From the IMG/VR virus record IMGVR_UViG_3300018082_000015, positions 1 through 44,481 of that record: a stretch of 44,481 bases of DNA. One strand, given 5' to 3'. Source of the DNA: a virus. The first letter of the stretch is position 1; every line of letters starts with the position of its first letter. Below the pieces are notes generated by a model. The model searched no databases, was not told where the DNA came from, and saw only the letters and a program-made list of their open reading frames with translations. Shown one piece after another: positions 1,437 through 39,324 of the stretch. A program made the translations under genes and the position numbers.

Positions 1437-1637
1437 TCACGCAGGCTCCGCGTAACGCTCGTCGAGATCGGGCATCGCAGCACGCATGTCCCGCAAGCAG
1501 TCGTCGCAGACGATCACGACATCAGAGAGCTCGCCCTCGGTGAATGTGGGCTGGGCCTTCGCGACCGCTTCCTCCTCGGACCAGCCGTGTTCGAATGTCC
1601 CTCCGCAGGCGTCGCAGGTGTACGTCGGCCTGCTCAC
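1437..1637 (-). CDS. small zinc-ribbon protein, 66 aa
   Basis: Two CxxC knuckles (CDACGGTF near residue 8 and CDDCLRDM near residue 44) form a probable zinc ribbon. Its start overlaps the stop of the upstream 182-aa gene by 4 bases. Small zinc-ribbon proteins are common in actinophage early operons. DNA binding is possible but not shown. Confidence 0.7.
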   Translation of the reverse strand: MSRPTYTCDACGGTFEHGWSEEEAVAKAQPTFTEGELSDVVIVCDDCLRDMRAAMPDLDERYAEPA

Positions 1638-2182
1638 GCGAGCGCCGGCTCCGCGTCCGGGTCGAGCGAAGGTTCGGGATCGAGCGCGAGGTCGGCCAGG
1701 AGCTTGTGCCGCGCTGATGCCCGCTCCTCGGCCTGCGCTTGGATCGACTCGCCCTTCGGCCGGACCTCACCCCACAGCGCGATCATGCGCACCTTGAGGG
1801 GGCCGTCCTCGGCCCACGTCTTGAGACGTCCGAACTCCCCGAATAGCTCTTCGAGGATCTCCTCCTCGCGGTCGAAGTGCTGGCCGGCGACCCGGATCCA
1901 CGCCTCGGCGCGAGCGATCTGCTTGGCGCGCTCGCGCTCGTCCGTCGCGGTGACCTCTTCGAGGGGTCGCATCGCCTCCGAGACGTGCTTGGCCAGCACG
2001 ATCCAGGGGCTTCGCACCTGCCCCGATTCGAAACGTCGGGCGACGTGCTCGATCGCCTCCTGCACGAGCGCCGGGTGCTCCCTGAAGACGTCGATCACGC
2101 GCTGCTCGAGCGTCGCGTCGGGGACGTTTCGGAAGCGCTCGATCGCCACGGCGCGAAGCTCCGTCCAGACGTACTCGCTCAC
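1634..2182 (-). CDS. hypothetical protein after the replication gene, 182 aa
   Basis: The start overlaps the stop of the replication-initiator-like gene by 4 bases, so the two are probably co-translated. The protein is charged and helical, with no Walker A motif. A helicase loader would be expected by position, but I see no sequence evidence for it. Function unknown. Confidence 0.7.
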   Translation of the reverse strand: MSEYVWTELRAVAIERFRNVPDATLEQRVIDVFREHPALVQEAIEHVARRFESGQVRSPWIVLAKHVSEAMRPLEEVTATDERERAKQIARAEAWIRVAGQHFDREEEILEELFGEFGRLKTWAEDGPLKVRMIALWGEVRPKGESIQAQAEERASARHKLLADLALDPEPSLDPDAEPALA

Positions 2183-2883
2183 GTCGTCGCCTCCGTGGGT
2201 TGCAGGCGTGCGAGTTGCTGCTGGACGGTCTCGGCTAGGGGAAGCTCCTCGAGGGAGGGTTCTAGGTCTTCGTTCTGATCGTTTCTGGCAGGCAGGCCCG
2301 TCTCGTCGACCTCGCGCGCGGGTCCCTGCACTACGGCCTGCATGCCTGCAAGGTTTAGATCTTGCTCTAGATCTTTCTCTTCTCCTTCTCTTCTGGGCCG
2401 GACCTCCTCCGGAGCGGTTCCGGCCGCGTTCCGGCGCTCTTCCGGAAGCGTTCCGGAACTCCCTGGAAAGAGAGGGGTTTTTTCACCAAGACCGAAGAGG
2501 GCGGCCGTCCGGCTCTCTTGGGAAGCGGACTTGCCCCGATCGGTGGCCGAATCTGGGAAGCGGCTCTTTCCGGAACGTTTCCGGAAAGCCTCGCGAGGTT
2601 GGTTGGTCTCGAAGTCGACGATCTGTACGACGTACTCGCCACCTGCCTCGTAGACGAGGATCCGCTCGACCGCCTCGAGCTCGATGAGCGCGTAGCCGGC
2701 CTGCTCGTCCGAGTGCCCGAGCATCGGGTAGCAGCGGGCCCTGAGCTTCCGTGGCCGCGCGTCGAGGCGACCCCACGGATCCGAATGCGCGAGCAGCCGC
2801 CAGTAGATCCGCTCCGCGAGGTCGGAAAGCTCGGCCAGCGACTCCGACTGCCCGACCGTGTCCTGGATCGCGCGCCAGGCCAT
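2179..2883 (-). CDS. replication-initiator-like protein
   Basis: 234 aa from ATG 2883, which shares TGATG with the upstream stop. The N-terminal third resembles the winged-helix region of phage replisome organisers: MAWRAIQDTVGQSESL, then AERIYWRLLAHSDPWGRLDA and GGEYVVQIVDFETNQ. The middle (about residues 95-160) is low-complexity and charged. DNA encoding that linker carries phased TTCCGG repeats, an arrangement like lambda O with the origin inside its own gene. The inferred role is recognising the origin and recruiting the host helicase. Confidence 0.65.
   Translation of the reverse strand: MAWRAIQDTVGQSESLAELSDLAERIYWRLLAHSDPWGRLDARPRKLRARCYPMLGHSDEQAGYALIELEAVERILVYEAGGEYVVQIVDFETNQPREAFRKRSGKSRFPDSATDRGKSASQESRTAALFGLGEKTPLFPGSSGTLPEERRNAAGTAPEEVRPRREGEEKDLEQDLNLAGMQAVVQGPAREVDETGLPARNDQNEDLEPSLEELPLAETVQQQLARLQPTEATT
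2350..2586. other. putative phage replication origin (iterons plus pyrimidine/AT-rich tract)
   Basis: TTCCGG begins at 2418, 2429, 2440 and 2451, exactly 11 bases apart, with a near match (CTCCGG) at 2407 in the same phase. A second pair of TTCCGGAA lies at 2568 and 2579, again 11 apart. Since 11 is not a multiple of three, protein repeats cannot explain the spacing. Beside the first cluster, 2350-2397 holds two TAGATCTT copies 12 bases apart and a T/C-rich tract that could melt. Origin function is inferred from this layout inside a replication gene. Confidence 0.6.
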
Positions 2884-3260
2884 CAGCGAACGAGCTCCTT
2901 GGAGACGAGCAGCGGTCGTCGCTTGCGGTCCCAGGGCCAGAAGCCCATGTTGAGTGCCATCCCCATCAGCCACCGGAGCCGATCGTCGATCAGGAACCAC
3001 TCGACGCCCGAGAGCCGATGCCCCATCCAGCCACAGGGCGTGTTGATGATGCGCGTGTAGTCGAACTGCTCGTGCAGAGCCCGCTCGAGGCGGGGCGCAA
3101 CCTCCTCCTCACAGACAACGGCGAAGACCAGCTGCGCGCCGAGCTCCTTCAACCGCGCCGGCGGCCAGTAGGCGAGGCCGATCTTGCAGACGCCGAGGTT
3201 GCGTAGCGGCATCCCGATCTTGCCCGGCTGGGCGAAGTAGACGCAGCGAACGTGCTCCAC
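2883..3260 (-). CDS. GIY-YIG-superfamily (T5orf172/MUG113-like) protein
   Basis: 125 aa, GTG start. CVYFAQPGKIGMPL followed by CKIGLAYWPPARLKEL and a distal EVAPRLERALHEQF...VEWF follow the pattern of T5orf172/MUG113 domains: a Y/F strand, a KIG strand with downstream R, H and F residues, and a terminal EWF. These belong to the GIY-YIG nuclease fold. Nuclease activity is plausible but untested. It is coupled to the replication gene by TGATG. Confidence 0.6.
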   Translation of the reverse strand: MEHVRCVYFAQPGKIGMPLRNLGVCKIGLAYWPPARLKELGAQLVFAVVCEEEVAPRLERALHEQFDYTRIINTPCGWMGHRLSGVEWFLIDDRLRWLMGMALNMGFWPWDRKRRPLLVSKELVR

Positions 3261-3266
3261 CGCCAG

Positions 3267-3377
3267 CTACAGCTCCTCGGCCTCGAGCACGTGCACGGTG
3301 TCGAGCGGGACCGTCACTTCCTCGTCGGTGCCAGGGTGGAACGTGACGGTGGTCGTCTCCTCGGTTGCTCTTGCCAC
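3267..3377 (-). CDS. 36-aa hypothetical protein
   Basis: The GTG start lies six bases after GGAAAGGAG. The peptide is Thr/Glu-rich with strand-like segments (TVTFHPGTDEEVTVPL). It fills the gap between two larger genes. It is supported by the ribosome-binding site and codon pattern only; function unknown. Confidence 0.5.
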   Translation of the reverse strand: MARATEETTTVTFHPGTDEEVTVPLDTVHVLEAEEL

Positions 3378-3399
3378 GATGGGCTCCTTTCCTGCCGCG

Positions 3400-3666
3400 C
3401 TAGGCGGCGTCGATTCCAAGTGCAGTGCGAGCCGCGACCTCACGGCCGGGCTTTACGCGACCTGAGAACGTGATCGGGTCCTGCGGGTGATCCCAGCGCC
3501 GGCGTGGGTTCTCGAGCCAGTCGGGCGGCATCTGCGGACCCGAGCCCGGGCGGATGAAGGCCGGAGCTTCGCCGATCTCGTCCATCGTCCACTCGGCGAC
3601 GTGCCGGCTTCCGTCAGGGAAGTCGATCTCGACGCGGCCGACGGGGATCGTCTTCGGGTCTCTCAC
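3400..3666 (-). CDS. hypothetical protein, 88 aa
   Basis: The GTG start forms a GTGA overlap with the VRR-NUC gene stop. The protein contains VGRVEIDFPDGSRHVAEW, a small beta-rich segment, then a proline-rich middle. No recognised family. Coupling suggests it accompanies the nuclease. Confidence 0.6.
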   Translation of the reverse strand: MRDPKTIPVGRVEIDFPDGSRHVAEWTMDEIGEAPAFIRPGSGPQMPPDWLENPRRRWDHPQDPITFSGRVKPGREVAARTALGIDAA

Positions 3667-4001
3667 GCCGCCTCGCTCTCGTGTCGCGTTCCGCGCTTGA
3701 GCTCAGCCTCGATCAGGCCCGACTCCCAGTCGGCATCGCTCCACACACCCGCGTCGACGCCGGCCGCCCGCAGCGCCTCGATCCACTCGGCCTGCTCGGC
3801 TGTCAGCACGTTCTTTCCGACCTTCAGCTCGCGCACGAGGAAGCGGCCGTGGCCGCAGATGACGAGATCGGGGAAGCCGGCGTTGCCCTGGATGGGCGTG
3901 CGGTAGCCCTTCTGCGACCAGGCCGCCCGCTCGGCGTGGACGAGGTAGCCGAGGATGCGCGCGACGTCGAGGACGCCCTTCTGCAGGTCGCGCTCAAGCA
4001 T
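3663..4001 (-). CDS. VRR-NUC domain nuclease
   Basis: 112 aa from ATG 4001, which overlaps the upstream stop by 8 bases. Motifs match the VRR-NUC branch of PD-(D/E)xK nucleases: ERDLQKGVLDVARILGY at the N-terminus, GFPDLVICGHGRFLVRELKVG (core D, then ExK in VRELK), and LTAEQAEWIEALRAAGVDAG. Phage stand-alone VRR-NUC proteins are thought to act as structure-specific nucleases in replication or recombination. The catalytic D, E and K are all present. Confidence 0.8.
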   Translation of the reverse strand: MLERDLQKGVLDVARILGYLVHAERAAWSQKGYRTPIQGNAGFPDLVICGHGRFLVRELKVGKNVLTAEQAEWIEALRAAGVDAGVWSDADWESGLIEAELKRGTRHESEAA

Positions 4002-4592: not shown

Positions 4593-4936
4593 CAGAAAAA
4601 ATCCTTCGGCCACGGCTCGTCGGCGCCGAGCTGCGCGCTCGGCTCGCGCGGCGTCTCGTAGGCCGCCGGCACCCAGCCCTCGCCCCGGCGCCGCTTGACG
4701 AGCCCCTTGCCCGCGAGCATGCGCCCGGCCGAAGCACCCTCCGAGGGGCACCACTGGCAGCGCTCGTCGGAGCCGTGACCGCGCCCACCGCGCTCGGCTC
4801 GCCAGGCGTGCAGGCGGGCGCCGAGTTCCTCGGAGGAGAGCGGTCCGAGGCGGGTGATGACGTCGAGCGCGAAGGCTTGCCGCTCGGTCAGCGTGGCCGC
4901 GCGGTCGAGGCCGGGGAGGGCGGGCTGCGGGTTCAT
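4592..4936 (-). CDS. winged-helix-like hypothetical protein, 114 aa
   Basis: TERQAFALDVITRLGPLSSEELGARLHAW resembles the first helices of a winged-helix domain, and GRMLAGKGLVKRRRGEG would be recognition helix and wing. A CQWC pair lies between them. DNA binding is inferred weakly. It is coupled to the methyltransferase upstream by a 4-base overlap. Confidence 0.55.
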   Translation of the reverse strand: MNPQPALPGLDRAATLTERQAFALDVITRLGPLSSEELGARLHAWRAERGGRGHGSDERCQWCPSEGASAGRMLAGKGLVKRRRGEGWVPAAYETPREPSAQLGADEPWPKDFF

Positions 4937-6180
4937 GCGAGGGCCTCCGCGAGTAGCGACTGCTGCCGCGTGCGCGCCTTCGTCATCGCGCAGTAGCGCT
5001 CGTTCAGCTCCACTCCGATCGCGTGCCGCCCGAGCTGGCGGGCGACGAGGAGGGTGGTGCCGGAGCCTGAGAAAGGGTCGAGGATGGTGGCGGGGCCGGG
5101 ATCCCCTAAGTCAGGATGGGCGCACAGAGGAGGGCAGGATGGCCGCCAGCCATGAGTAATCACCACTTTTACTTTCCCCGGAATGAACCCGTCTTTGGCC
5201 CAATTCGTCCCGCGTGTATCGGGTTCCGAAGTAGACGGACGCAAATTGCCCGAGGCACCATCCACTAGTTCGCTTGACGTCTCCCGCACCCACGGCGCCC
5301 CGCACTCCGGGCACACCCCCCGCTCGCTCGTCCCCGCCAGGATCATCCGCCGCACCAGCTCGCGCGGGAACGCCGCGAAGTGCTGTACCACCGGCTCTCC
5401 GCAGTGCTCTCTCGGCGCCCCGCCCTGCCAGTAGGCGTCGCAGATGCGGCAGATGGCGAGGGCGTTGGGCTCGGTGGGGATGGTCCAGACGGAGCGGGCG
5501 TTCTTCTCTGCCACGTAGTCGTTGGTCATCGAATCCCAGCCGCCGTGTCCGTGTCCCGAGGCGGTCTTGGCAGCGCCCTTCGCTGTCTCTCTTGCAATGG
5601 CGTAGCGAGCGTGGGTGTTGACACTCGCGGGCTCGCGCAACGCCTCCGCATCGTAGAAGTACCTCGGCTTCTTCGAGAACAGGAACACGTACGAGTGCGC
5701 CGTCGTCGGGCGGTCGCGCACCGACTCGGGCATCGCGTTCGGCTTCGACCACACGATGCAGGAGCGCAGGTACCAGCCGTCAGCGCGGAGGGCGAAGGCC
5801 AGTAGCCAGGGTGCTCCGAGAAGGTCCTTCGGCTTGTACGGGTGGGGCCGATTTCGTATGCCCTCGGTGTGTGTTTGCCCGCCTTGCCAACGACTCCAGT
5901 CCGAACCGCTAGCCGTGTATGAGTCCCCTATTTCGCACCACAGCGTCCCGTCGTCCCGCAGAACCCGCCGCACTTCCCGAAACACGTCCACGAGGCGAGC
6001 GGCCCATTCGTCGGGGGAGGACTCGAGGCCGATCTGGGAGTCGACGCCGTAGTCCCGGAGCCCGAAGAACGGCGGCGACGTGCAGACCATGTGAACCGAG
6101 CGGTCCGGCAGCTCGCGCAGCACCGTGAGCGCGTCGCCGCAGTGGAGCGTCAGGTCGGGGTCGGCGAGGTAGGGCGTCAC
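4933..6180 (-). CDS. site-specific DNA methyltransferase (beta-class N4C/N6A type)
   Basis: 415 aa from GTG 6180, overlapping the upstream stop. TSPPF at residues 34-38 is catalytic motif IV, of the S-P-P type frequent in N4-cytosine enzymes. DPFSGSGTT at 368-376 is the AdoMet motif I, placed C-terminally as in beta-class enzymes. Between them are CRIC...C and CPECGAPW knuckles that look like a zinc-binding insertion, possibly part of target recognition. No cognate restriction gene is nearby, so self-protection of phage DNA against host restriction is the likely role. Target specificity cannot be read from the sequence. Confidence 0.85.
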   Translation of the reverse strand: MTPYLADPDLTLHCGDALTVLRELPDRSVHMVCTSPPFFGLRDYGVDSQIGLESSPDEWAARLVDVFREVRRVLRDDGTLWCEIGDSYTASGSDWSRWQGGQTHTEGIRNRPHPYKPKDLLGAPWLLAFALRADGWYLRSCIVWSKPNAMPESVRDRPTTAHSYVFLFSKKPRYFYDAEALREPASVNTHARYAIARETAKGAAKTASGHGHGGWDSMTNDYVAEKNARSVWTIPTEPNALAICRICDAYWQGGAPREHCGEPVVQHFAAFPRELVRRMILAGTSERGVCPECGAPWVRETSSELVDGASGNLRPSTSEPDTRGTNWAKDGFIPGKVKVVITHGWRPSCPPLCAHPDLGDPGPATILDPFSGSGTTLLVARQLGRHAIGVELNERYCAMTKARTRQQSLLAEALA

Positions 6181-6302
6181 AGCAGCCCACACGCTCTCGC
6201 CGCGAAGCCGAGTGCGGGCGGGGCGGCATACAGCGCGAACGCGAGCCAGCCCATGAAGGTAGCCAGGAAGCCGAGCTCGTGCAGGATAGGGCGGGGGGTC
6301 AT
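6177..6302 (-). CDS. 41-aa membrane peptide
   Basis: The ATG at 6302 overlaps the upstream stop as TGATG, and its stop overlaps the methyltransferase GTG. One hydrophobic segment (LGFLATFMGWLAFALYAAPP) spans most of the peptide. Both couplings are exact, supporting a real small gene of unknown function. Confidence 0.55.
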   Translation of the reverse strand: MTPRPILHELGFLATFMGWLAFALYAAPPALGFAARACGLL

Positions 6303-6532
6303 CACCAGCCATACTTCGCCGCGAGCTCTTGGCCGCGTTCGATGTCAGCCTGAGTAGCACGTAAAAAAGCGACGACCAGATGCCCGTTCGGGCAGCGTCC
6401 TTCCGCTAGCGGTTCTCCTTCAGCGATCTCTGTGTGATCTCCGAGGTAGATCATCGGCCCCGAGGGGAGACCGCATTCCTGGCAAATCGGTGGTGGCACA
6501 TCTCGAATCGTTGCGGGATCTATTTGTTTCAT
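6302..6532 (-). CDS. zinc-binding hypothetical protein, 76 aa
   Basis: The start is the ATG at 6532, within an ATGA overlap with the upstream gene. CQECGLP near residue 17 and a later CPNGH could bind one metal. The C-terminus is a charged helix. Function unknown. Confidence 0.6.
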   Translation of the reverse strand: MKQIDPATIRDVPPPICQECGLPSGPMIYLGDHTEIAEGEPLAEGRCPNGHLVVAFLRATQADIERGQELAAKYGW

Positions 6533-7407
6533 GCCCCCCGACACCCCCACCCGCTGAACCCATATCGCCGCCAGATCGCGAGCGCGACCTCGTACTGTTG
6601 ACGGGGGGTCGCGAGGTACGCCTCCGAGGGGTAGCCGGGCAGACGGAAGGCGTCCCAGCTCGAGCGGTGGAATCCGAACGCGCCCTGATACGTGCCGCTA
6701 TTCCAGCTGAACGTCGAGTAGGTCTCGCACTGAATGATGCGCTGCCACTTCGCCGGCAGCCACTCGCGCCAGGCGTACTCTCGCCAATGCCACGCCTCGA
6801 ACACCCGCCGCGCCGCCCGCGCCTTGAAGCGCCAGCGCTCCGCGAGGTAGCGAGCACGGGCACAGGAGCGAGGCCGCTCGAGGGTCTCGAGAACCGACGG
6901 CCCCGCCCCCATCCGTTCGCGCCAGCCTCGGTAGGCGGCGCGGTAGAACCGCAGAGCCTTGCGGGCCGAGCGGCACGTCTCGGAGCGGGAGCTGCCCGAG
7001 TCAGCGCCCCTAGCAGCCCGGGGGACGTCGCCGCCGATTCCTTCCCGCTCCGACACGGTCGCACAGTTCTCGGCGAGGCCGCGCCGAGCAGCGCAGCCCC
7101 GCCGAGTCACCTGAATGCCAGTTGAACTGTGCAGATGGCGCAGGAGCAAGTTCTTGGATGCGGCATGGGCATCACCCCCTTCGATGTAGTCGGGCGCGGC
7201 TCGCTCGGGTTCACCACCTGCGGCGGCGACAGAGCCCGAAACGGCGGGGTTGCCCACGGCCGCGCCCGATCTGTCGGCTCCCGCGACGCGGCTCATCGAA
7301 GCCTGCGCTCCGGAAACGCCGGAAGGTGCTCCCACACCCCCGGGAGCCGAGTTCTGAGCGACTTGTGAGCTTGCGATAAGTGCGGTGACGAGTACGCCTG
7401 TTGCCAC
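6529..7407 (-). CDS. secreted Rpf-like transglycosylase
   Basis: 292 aa, GTG start. A hydrophobic N-terminus (ATGVLVTALIASSQVAQ) looks like a signal peptide, followed by a Gly/Ala/Ser-rich linker. The C-terminal domain (about 215-290) carries WQRIIQCETYSTFSW, GAFGFHRSSWDAF and PRQQYEVALAIW, the pattern of resuscitation-promoting-factor/lysozyme-like muralytic domains. Glu228 is the expected catalytic acid. Rpf domains are typical of Actinobacteria, which informs the host inference. It is encoded far from the amidase lysis cassette, so it may act in cell-wall remodelling or lysis. Confidence 0.75.
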   Translation of the reverse strand: MATGVLVTALIASSQVAQNSAPGGVGAPSGVSGAQASMSRVAGADRSGAAVGNPAVSGSVAAAGGEPERAAPDYIEGGDAHAASKNLLLRHLHSSTGIQVTRRGCAARRGLAENCATVSEREGIGGDVPRAARGADSGSSRSETCRSARKALRFYRAAYRGWRERMGAGPSVLETLERPRSCARARYLAERWRFKARAARRVFEAWHWREYAWREWLPAKWQRIIQCETYSTFSWNSGTYQGAFGFHRSSWDAFRLPGYPSEAYLATPRQQYEVALAIWRRYGFSGWGCRGA

Positions 7408-10917: not shown

Positions 10918-12045
10918 TCACGACTCCTGCGAGCGCCGCGCGACGTATGCCCGCACGGCCTCGCCGAAGGCGGCTTCCTTCGCGTTCTCGCGGTTCCAGG
11001 AGCGCCCGCCCTTCGTCGCCCAGGCCAACCATCGCCAGCCGTCCGTAGTCGCGGCGATCGCGTCGAGGGTCTTGCCGACATTCGGGCCGGGTTTGCCGTC
11101 CGTCGTGTAGTGCGGGATCACGGTCCGCCCGAGCGAGTCCTCAAGCGCGGGCTCGTCGTTGGTGTCAGGAGCCGAGGGGGACGGGGGAGAGGAGGGCTGT
11201 TCGCCCTTCGGGGCATCCCCCTCGGCCTGCTGATCGTCGGGAGCGGCCGCAGAGCTGCCCCCGCCGTCCTCCGGCGCGGCCGCCGGAAGAATCTCGCCAC
11301 CATTGCCTGCCGAGGGATCGCCGATCGCCCATGTCCCCAGTGCCTTGCCGGTGTCCTCGCTGATCGGGACGTCGAGCGGGATGAACGCGCGATGCTGCTG
11401 CTGGAGCTTGATCGGTTTCGGGATCCCTGGCGCGTCTGCCGTCAGAAGGAACGAGAGCGTCAGTTCGTACGGGAGGCTCTTCTCCGAGACCGGCATCCAG
11501 CCGTCGAGGCCGGTCAGCGAACGCTTCGGTCGGACGACGGTCTTGCCGTCCTCCTTGACGATCTCGATCTTCTCCTCGGCGCGGAAGCAGAGGATGACGT
11601 GCGCGCGGATCTGCAGGAGGCGCGAGACGAACTTGCGGTGCGCCATCTTCGGGGCGATCCAAGCTGTCATCTTCACGGCATCCCGACCGCCGAGGCGCTG
11701 GTACTCCTCCTCGTGCCAGTCGAGCAGGCCGCCGTCGCCGGCGTGCTCATGCGAGGCCGAGTCGACGACGATCACCGCGTAGCCGGCCTGGTCAGCCGCG
11801 ATGATCGCTTCCGCGTAGGCGTCCGGCCGGAAAGGCGCATTTAGCTCCCCATGATCGAACTCGAACTCGTCGGCGTAGTGCTTGGCGCGCCCGGCCTCGG
11901 TGTCGATGACTACGAAGCGCTGACCGTTCCCTAGGCCCGTCGCGAGCTTCATCGCCGAGTACGTCTTCCCGCTGCCAGTCCCTCCAGCGAGTCCGATGAG
12001 GAGGCTGACGCTCTCGCGCTTGGCGGGGCGGAAGGTGAAGCTCAT
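10918..12045 (-). CDS. RecA-like AAA ATPase (Sak4-type recombination protein)
   Basis: 375 aa, coupled by ATGA. Walker A is GGTGSGKT (21-28) and Walker B is VIVVD (91-95), followed by SASHEH. A later KMAHRKFVSRLLQIRAHVILCFRA segment matches phage AAA_24/Sak4 ATPases that form RecA-like filaments with single-strand annealing systems. A Pro/Ser/Asp-rich linker (about 260-310) precedes a small C-terminal domain (GWRWLAWATKGGRSWN) that may bind DNA or a partner. The RecE-like nuclease two genes upstream completes a recombination module. Confidence 0.75.
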   Translation of the reverse strand: MSFTFRPAKRESVSLLIGLAGGTGSGKTYSAMKLATGLGNGQRFVVIDTEAGRAKHYADEFEFDHGELNAPFRPDAYAEAIIAADQAGYAVIVVDSASHEHAGDGGLLDWHEEEYQRLGGRDAVKMTAWIAPKMAHRKFVSRLLQIRAHVILCFRAEEKIEIVKEDGKTVVRPKRSLTGLDGWMPVSEKSLPYELTLSFLLTADAPGIPKPIKLQQQHRAFIPLDVPISEDTGKALGTWAIGDPSAGNGGEILPAAAPEDGGGSSAAAPDDQQAEGDAPKGEQPSSPPSPSAPDTNDEPALEDSLGRTVIPHYTTDGKPGPNVGKTLDAIAATTDGWRWLAWATKGGRSWNRENAKEAAFGEAVRAYVARRSQES

Positions 12046-12296
12046 CGCACCGCTCCGTGGCGTTCCTCGAGCACCGCGATCGCGTATAGGTGCTTCCCGA
12101 CGCGGGCCTCGTTGACGCTACGGTAGGTCTCCGTGCCGGCGAACTCGACCCGCTGCATCCGCTCTCTGAGCGCCTGGTAGTTGTCGGTATCGAGGTTGAG
12201 CAGCGCCTTGATCGGATCCTTTACGCGCTCGTCGCACTCGGCGCAGCCGTCGTAGATGATCGTTCCTTCGCGGCCCTTGTGGTAATCGTGGCTCAC
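12042..12296 (-). CDS. small CxxC protein between nuclease and ATPase, 84 aa
   Basis: The start overlaps the nuclease stop as GTGA and the end overlaps the ATPase start as ATGA. The N-terminus has a metal-binding look (YDGCAECDERV), then a helical tail (YQALRERMQRVEFAG). Tight coupling implies a role with the recombination pair. Confidence 0.6.
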   Translation of the reverse strand: MSHDYHKGREGTIIYDGCAECDERVKDPIKALLNLDTDNYQALRERMQRVEFAGTETYRSVNEARVGKHLYAIAVLEERHGAVR

Positions 12297-13153
12297 GCCG
12301 CCTCCACCGCTTCCCGCTCGAACCAGCGCGACTCCTCCCAGGGCGGGAGCTCGGCGTAGCACACCTCGGTCGAATAGCCTGGCCACTCGCCCGACGCCAT
12401 GCACTCACGCCAGCAGCGGACCGCGTATTCGACCTTGCTCTCCGCGACTGCCAGCACATCGGGCCCGAGCGAGACGACGCTAAGCGCATAGGGCGGATAC
12501 GTCTCCTGGACCACGAAGCGCATAAGAGCCTCAGCACCCGTGATCGCCTTGAGCCCGCGCAGGTAGAAGACCACCTGAATGTCCGCCCCGATCGTGAAGA
12601 GCGTGCGCGTCCAGCGATGAGGATCGGCACTCGCCGAGGTCGTCTTGAAGTCGTCGACGCACGAGTAGTCGTCGCGTAGCCAGTCGAGGAGCGCCCGACA
12701 GGTGACATCGCCCTCTTTCCATACGAGCGTCTGCTCGGGCTTCCCATCTGCGAAGAGCGGCGGATCGACATGAATGCGGGCGAGCTGCGTCTGCGCCGCC
12801 TCGACCATCGCCTCCACGTTGGCGAGCTGATCCGCGAGCAGGGGCACTTTGCCAATCGCCCGCGCCTCCTCCCGTGCTTCCTTGGCTGCCTTCGTACGCC
12901 AGTCCGGAGCGTCGATGACGGAGACGATGTCGCGTCCCTCGAGCAGGATCGCGTGCGCGACGGTTCCCACGTCGAACTTCTGGAACTCCTCGCGCTCGAA
13001 GGCGAGGTTCAACCTGGGATGCGCCGTCCGGGCATGCCTCGGAGACTTCGTGCAGAGGATGTGGGCGATCGACGACGAGAGGGACGGCTGCTCGCAGGGA
13101 TCCGCGTGGTAGAGCTCGGCGGTCAGGCCGAAGATGCCGGTTCCCTCCGTCAC
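12293..13153 (-). CDS. RecE/YqaJ-like PD-(D/E)xK exonuclease
   Basis: 286 aa, GTG start in a GTGA overlap. PSLSSSIAHILCTKSPRHA and GTVAHAILLEG (His67) match the start of DUF3799/Cas4-RecB-like phage nucleases. The catalytic set is Glu140 (KPEQTLVW), Asp157 (RALLDWL) and the D-F-K of VDDFKTT (168-170). Such enzymes resect double-stranded ends so an annealing protein can load. Both neighbours fit a phage recombination cassette. Confidence 0.8.
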   Translation of the reverse strand: MTEGTGIFGLTAELYHADPCEQPSLSSSIAHILCTKSPRHARTAHPRLNLAFEREEFQKFDVGTVAHAILLEGRDIVSVIDAPDWRTKAAKEAREEARAIGKVPLLADQLANVEAMVEAAQTQLARIHVDPPLFADGKPEQTLVWKEGDVTCRALLDWLRDDYSCVDDFKTTSASADPHRWTRTLFTIGADIQVVFYLRGLKAITGAEALMRFVVQETYPPYALSVVSLGPDVLAVAESKVEYAVRCWRECMASGEWPGYSTEVCYAELPPWEESRWFEREAVEAA

Positions 13154-38224: not shown

Positions 38225-39324
38225 CCGGCTGTTCCGTCCACGAGCCTAAGCTCGCCGAGCGGGGACATAGGTTTACCACCCTCACCGCTGCCTTCTAGCG
38301 GCGTCATGACGAGGCCGAACATGAGCGCCCGAAGTTCGCTCATCGGCAGATCGAGTGCTTCGGCGATATGCGACTTGCGCACACCCTCTTTGCGAAGTTG
38401 CGCCAGGACTTTGGCCAACACCTGTGAGCTTTCTCGTTTGATGGGCTCGGGCTCGTTCTTCCTATACCCGCGTCGGGAAATGTCCATGTAGAGAGAGCGA
38501 TACTGCCAGTCTGAAAGCAATCCGAGATCATGCATGCGGTATGTCAGTGCAGCTACGGCGACCTTCCATCTTTTCTTTGCGACGATGAGTTGATCCAATG
38601 ACGGGAACCGTGGCGCATGGGCTTTCACATCGCCCTTTGGCATCAGGAACGCGGAAGCGAAGTCTCTCGCTTCCTTTTCGATCTCGCGCCCACGCGTAAT
38701 CTGCGCTCGCGCGTGGAGCACGAGATGACCGAGTTCATGTGCGGCATCCATACGGCTACGCTCGCCCGACTTCTTCGTATTGAGAAACACGAACGGCAAG
38801 CCGTGGCGCCATGTCGAGAAGGCGTCGAGCTCGGCGTAGTCCTCAGCAAGCGAGAAGACGCGCACCCCGTGTGCTTCCAGTAGGTGGATCATGTTGGGGA
38901 TCGGCTTTTCGCCAAGTCCCCATTCCATGCGCACTACTTCAGCTGCACGCTCGGGGTCCTCGCCGTCGAGATGCTGCGGAAGATCTGGAGTAGGCAACCG
39001 GAACCGCTCAGCGAGCCAGTCATGGACGGCACAGGCGAGCGTTCCTCCAGCGACAGCGCGCCCAACCTGCTTCGCCGTGAGCTTGCTTAGGGCACGAAAG
39101 CTTGCCGTATCGGGCGTGAGTTCCTCGAGATCAGGACCTTCGAAGAAGCCAACCGGGAAGTCGAGCACGCGAGCAAGTTCGTCGACAGTCTCGGGAAGCG
39201 GCTCGTGTTGGTCGCTTTCCCAACCTGTGATGCTGCGCACCGAGACGCCGGCGAGCTTTGCGAGCTCAGTCTTCGTAAGTCCCCTGCGCTTTCGCGCAAG
39301 AGAAAGACGAGACGAATGAAACAT
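38221..39324 (-). CDS. XRE-HTH fused to ImmA/IrrE metallopeptidase
   Basis: 367 aa. N-terminal helix-turn-helix (GLTKTELAKLAGVSVRSITG, residues about 15-34). The zinc protease motif HELGH is at 196-200 (DAAHELGHLVLH), with the distal glutamate in EKEARDFASAFLMP. Such proteins cleave phage or element repressors, or sense damage. The C-terminal 100 residues contain KSHIAEALDLPMSELRALMF, a second DNA-contact-like region. It is co-transcribed with the 215-aa partner upstream (TGATG). Confidence 0.85.
   Translation of the reverse strand: MFHSSRLSLARKRRGLTKTELAKLAGVSVRSITGWESDQHEPLPETVDELARVLDFPVGFFEGPDLEELTPDTASFRALSKLTAKQVGRAVAGGTLACAVHDWLAERFRLPTPDLPQHLDGEDPERAAEVVRMEWGLGEKPIPNMIHLLEAHGVRVFSLAEDYAELDAFSTWRHGLPFVFLNTKKSGERSRMDAAHELGHLVLHARAQITRGREIEKEARDFASAFLMPKGDVKAHAPRFPSLDQLIVAKKRWKVAVAALTYRMHDLGLLSDWQYRSLYMDISRRGYRKNEPEPIKRESSQVLAKVLAQLRKEGVRKSHIAEALDLPMSELRALMFGLVMTPLEGSGEGGKPMSPLGELRLVDGTAG

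Follow-up and report, generated by a model that had tools for sequence, protein, structure and literature searches.

A candidate lambda-type replication origin with one-turn iterons inside the initiator gene of an uncultivated phage

Introduction

Origins embedded in the initiator gene are known for lambda and the Stx phages (PMC7466680), and in lambda O, phi80 gene 15 and the O gene of Stx phages the iterons are located directly after the DNA-binding domain (PMC7466680, PMC5043065). In SPP1, a Bacillus phage, oriL includes direct repeats within the gp38 initiator gene and an AT-rich unwinding element (PMC6316719). Helical phasing of iterons is known for plasmids (PMC5043065). For the initiator family of the PHROG 5810 group, no description of 10- or 11-bp iterons was found in the open-access literature.

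The window analysed here is the whole virus record IMGVR_UViG_3300018082_000015 (44,481 bp), which represents an uncultivated phage known from environmental DNA alone. As in lambda, phi80 and the Stx phages, iterons lie inside its initiator gene after the DNA-binding domain, and the layout also resembles that of SPP1, with repeats within the initiator gene and a candidate unwinding element; SPP1 has, however, a second origin (oriR), and none was seen in the window. We propose, with a probability of about 0.88, that this locus is the phage replication origin, embedded in its own initiator gene and representing a compact variant of the lambda type with one-turn iterons, for which we infer binding, melting, helicase loading and initiation. 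An uncultivated phage is thereby given a precisely located candidate origin, and the arrangement known from lambda O/ori would extend to a wider initiator family unassigned in Pfam.

Results

The initiator gene at 2179..2883 (minus strand) encodes a 234-aa winged-helix protein, as assigned from PHROG profiles, an AlphaFold2 model and Foldseek. The product matched PHROG 5810, 16167, 1408 and 12556, all annotated as 'replication initiation protein', with E values from 4.5e-9 to 1.7e-4, and belongs to the winged-helix family of the PHROG 5810/16167/1408 initiators, including the Paenibacillus phage Mock2 DnaD domain protein, JBD44 gp2 and HK639 gp54. In the AlphaFold2 model (46 aligned relatives), a winged-helix-like fold was predicted with confidence for residues ~1-115, followed by a low-confidence region (residues ~130-210), probably a disordered linker, and a short C-terminal helix (216-226). 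Among the viral Foldseek matches (best E 1.4e-7) were replication proteins and replisome organizers of phages, while the PDB gave generic winged-helix proteins alone, including ArsR and BlaI-like ones, none below E 0.001. A sequence search of the initiator against solved structures gave no match, and in Pfam no family was found up to E 1, so that plasmid Rep families (Rep_3 and similar) were also without a match.

The relation to lambda O is distant, consisting of a shared PHROG profile only: phrog_5810 matched both the window initiator and lambda O (the latter at 1.2e-13). Pfam Phage_rep_O (PF04492) recognised lambda O (5.7e-36) and phi80 gp15 (6e-25), but neither the window protein nor that of a sister phage, L177. 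All 46 members of group A4 matched the group profile, and hhalign of the A4 alignment with the single sequence of either lambda O or phi80 gp15 was not significant.

The first-pass annotation had placed TTCCGG at 2418, 2429, 2440, 2451, 2568 and 2579, and CTCCGG at 2407, and all these positions were correct. The main array, with the core (T)TCCGG(AA), is slightly longer than first noted and counts six 11-bp units at 2396..2461 (minus strand), because GGCCGGACCTC at 2396 carries the CCGG core in the same phase. CCGG occurs at 2398, 2409, 2420, 2431, 2442 and 2453 (through 2456), forming the longest constant-period 4-mer chain in the record, and the four TTCCGG copies are the sole hexamer chain of at least four members at periods of 7-25 bp across the 44.5 kb. 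None of 100 Markov genomes contained a hexamer chain of at least four members at a non-codon period, and the TTCCGG chain was not reproduced in any of 2000 shuffles of the initiator gene among synonymous codons. Since 11 is also no multiple of the codon length, these results uphold the initial argument that coding cannot cause the 11-bp phase.

The second cluster (2568..2586, minus strand) consists of two copies of TTCCGGAA spaced 11 bp apart, at a distance of 117 bp from the main array; of the five TTCCGGAA octamers in the genome, all but one fall in the two clusters. Within the gene, the main array (nt ~423-488) codes for the disordered linker, and the second cluster (nt ~298-316) for the basic end of the winged-helix domain. 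With the period chosen for best fit, the eight cores lie on one helical face at a repeat of ~10.7-10.75 bp (resultant 0.97), but not at exactly 11.0 bp (0.62).

Immediately 3' of the main array in gene orientation, and directly adjoining it, is a candidate DNA unwinding element (2346..2396, minus strand), purine-rich on the gene strand. Nearest-neighbour stability placed the least stable 30-bp (from 2354) and 50-bp (from 2346) segments of the whole 44.5-kb record within this tract; among 80-bp segments it ranks eighth, not first. The T/C-rich tract pointed out beside the repeats is thus real, and coincides with the record-wide minimum of duplex stability at the two shorter lengths. It contains weak, short imperfect tandem repeats in two rows, 2356-2380 and 2375-2394. 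The GC skew, also suggested in the first-pass annotation, gave no origin signal at 2.4 kb and is uninformative here, and no DnaA boxes were found near 2.4 kb.

Downstream, where lambda has P, lies a gene for a 182-aa protein of no recognised family (1634..2182, minus strand); the two genes share 4 bp (GTGA) at the initiator stop. Overlaps of 4 bp also occur in the lambda O/P and phi80 15/14 gene pairs and in the corresponding pair of L177, where a homologue aligning at 66% identity directly follows the initiator gene. The model of the 182-aa protein is all-helical with low confidence (pLDDT 52); by analogy with the lambda arrangement, the product is a candidate partner or helicase-loading factor. 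No helicase or helicase loader, including a P homologue, was recognised among the window ORFs scanned. The initiator genes of relatives adjoin DnaB, DnaC-like or phi80-14-type genes.

As controls, lambda O and phi80 gp15 were analysed by the same pipeline, which recovered the lags of 20, 23 and 24 bp for the former and 21 bp for the latter. The annotated lambda iterons start at 39034, 39054, 39078 and 39101, corresponding to nt 349-433 of the gene (start at 38686), and the phi80 sites are located at nt 365-441; these locations (nt ~350-440) are close to that of the main array in the window, and in each case the stability minimum follows, the within-gene 30-bp minima being at nt 446 (lambda O) and nt 449 (phi80 gp15), after the sites. 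The lambda iterons are ~18 bp long and spaced 20-24 bp apart, whereas the window carries 11-bp units in two clusters, and the spacing in L177 is 22 bp. The parallel with lambda O/ori drawn at the outset therefore holds for the layout, the gene position and the melting tract, but does not extend to membership in Pfam Phage_rep_O or to the spacing, one turn against 20-24 bp. On these two grounds the locus is classed as working like lambda O/ori, and not as a Pfam O member.

The L177 initiator is 51% identical to that of the window. In a codon alignment of the two genes, the six 11-bp units stay in register with no gap and the flanks differ, the window units TTCCGGAACGC, TTCCGGAAGAG, CGCCGGAACGC and so on being aligned with TTCCGGACAGC, GTCCGGCGCAC, AAGCGGACAGT, GTCCGGCAAGG, CGGCGGACACT and GTCCGC of L177. 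The amino-acid identity across the array is low (0.35), yet the 11-bp register is still free of gaps. L177 repeats CGGACnnnGTCCG at intervals of 22 bp; this lag was significant (p<0.001), and lag 11 alone was not (p 0.58). In the 8.6-kb L177 locus, the least stable 30-, 50- and 80-bp segments have their starts at 3778-3804, just past the array.

The survey was then widened to 168 relatives, dereplicated to 124 genes including that of the window (123 relatives). Counting at most three pairs per gene, 7-mer pairs in the 124 genes were far more frequent than in synonymous shuffles at lag 10 (142 against 16.8 expected) and lag 11 (129 against 13.7), and mostly located at gene nt 300-480. Lag 10 or 11 was individually significant (p<0.05) in 87% of the genes of group A2 and 59% of those of group A3, as against 3-21% of genes for the control lags 8/9 and 13/16; the 10/11-bp phase was absent (p>0.2) in 20 of the 123 relatives. 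In one gene, L129, an HNH-endonuclease-like segment, recognised by eye, appears to replace the phased array in the linker (~nt 330-480), and no 10/11-bp signal was detected.

The motifs vary among relatives, including TTGCGGC, TCAATTG and CACCGTG at 10 bp, CAAGCAC and CCAAGGC at 11 bp, and others. The first-pass annotation had proposed looking for relatives with the same phase but a different motif, and such relatives were found with the repeats at the same gene location, L177 among them. The PHROG 5810-group initiators resemble that of the window in having repeats, phased or tandem, in this linker DNA, but differ in motif and period (10 or 11 bp), and many of them carry clear tracts of 5-7 bp period, of which the window has no more than a weak counterpart.

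Enrichment was also seen at further short lags (5, 7, 14 and others), because a tract of shorter period lies downstream of the iterons: its period is 5-6 bp in A2 and 7 bp in A3, and it comes after the iterons in 63 of the 66 genes having both. Part of the 10-12-bp signal in A2 arises from this tract, since two units of 5-6 bp make up 10-12 bp. Examples are AATCC/GAATCC in A2 (L025, L093 and L038, ~nt 370-480) and CTGATTC in A3 (L115, L121 and L124). The 5-7-bp tract is widely shared despite the changing iteron motif, and is possibly a single-strand recognition tract; in the window it is marginal (p 0.053). In both A2 and A3, the 40-bp minimum of stability downstream of nt 240 is most often located at nt 360-440.

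The similarity of motifs in A2 follows the identity of the winged-helix domain (rho 0.48, partial 0.475, permutation p 0.003), the value for the C-terminus being 0.003. The correlation is weaker in A3 (partial rho 0.164, against 0.095 for the C-terminal part). It could arise in part because the array DNA is physically linked to the domain that precedes it, and shared ancestry is a further caveat.

Discussion

The origin interpretation put forward in the first-pass annotation is supported by the PHROG families, the linker array beside the stability minimum, the relatives, and the lambda and phi80 controls. The N-terminal winged-helix domain would bind the TTCCGG iterons; with one unit per 11 bp, the protomers on the main array would be lined up along almost the same side of the helix for about six turns, and two further protomers would occupy the upstream cluster. 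The protein-DNA complex formed in this way, bent or wrapped, may melt the adjacent purine-rich tract of low stability (2346-2396), and the flexible linker and C-terminal helix, perhaps together with the 182-aa downstream protein, would recruit the helicase. By analogy with lambda, replication could be of the theta type.

The strongest competing explanation, itself improbable, is that the repeats are operators through which the initiator or a phage repressor regulates transcription of the initiator's own gene, without a role as origin. Winged-helix folds do resemble those of transcriptional repressors, as in the ArsR and BlaI-like matches above E 0.001, and autoregulation is common among initiators. 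The array is, however, located in the middle of the gene, and no promoter-like site was detected within 1600-3500 by a scan for the sigma-70 type; moreover, the array adjoins the record-wide stability minimum at a position matching the known lambda and phi80 origins, and the protein family is annotated as replication initiation.

We consider it very unlikely that the array is a partition centromere, with parS-like iterons bound by another protein. Phased tandem sites are typical of centromeres too, but no partition gene was recognised among the ORFs searched, and in the relatives the motif varies with the winged helix encoded by the very gene that carries the array. Equally unlikely is a cluster of sites that the N6/N4 methyltransferase of the phage itself would modify, for regulation or for protection. 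The methyltransferase gene (4933-6360) is near the initiator locus, but methylation has no need of an 11-bp phase, the motifs are quite different in relatives, and the target-like sequences occur genome-wide at close to expectation (CCGG 296 against 343, TCCGGA 13 against 15). The weakest explanation, that the repeats stem from biased coding or composition in a low-complexity linker, can be set aside: the linker is disordered, and repetitive in relatives, but the synonymous shuffles refute this explanation, and the non-codon period and the gap-free register with the diverged L177 also speak against it.

Taking the embedded lambda-type origin as the preferred reading, we extend it tentatively, and with some doubt, to a broad initiator family in phages of both Gram-positive and Gram-negative hosts. 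Its members would carry contiguous one-turn (10- or 11-bp) arrays in the linker DNA, seating a continuous helical row of protomers, with a site sequence that changes rapidly together with the winged helix; the following 5-7-bp tract may be read single-stranded, like DnaA-trios. The joint variation of motif and DNA-binding domain among many phages makes the relatives a natural experiment on the co-evolution of initiator and origin in DNA that also encodes protein, and the set could be a source of many orthogonal initiator/origin pairs.

With respect to the remainder of the genome, no similar DNA was found in the phages collection, and no close relatives in the genome-contig scans. The contig IMGVR_UViG_3300018077_000028 (L007, 2744-3151) matches both window ends (1 and 44481) at 100% identity, and the phage map is probably circular with ~44.9 kb, because this second contig bridges the two ends via 406 extra bases. 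The gene directly upstream of the initiator (2883-3260, minus strand) carries a T5orf172/MUG113 (GIY-YIG-like) domain. An AAA_24/Sak4-like ATPase gene adjoins that of an exonuclease VIII-like nuclease (10918-12045 and 12293-13153, minus strand), and the pair is a probable phage recombination module. The gene at 6529-7407 (minus strand) encodes a Transglycosylase-like domain (PF06737), which is usual in actinobacterial Rpf-type proteins and gives a weak hint of an actinobacterial host.
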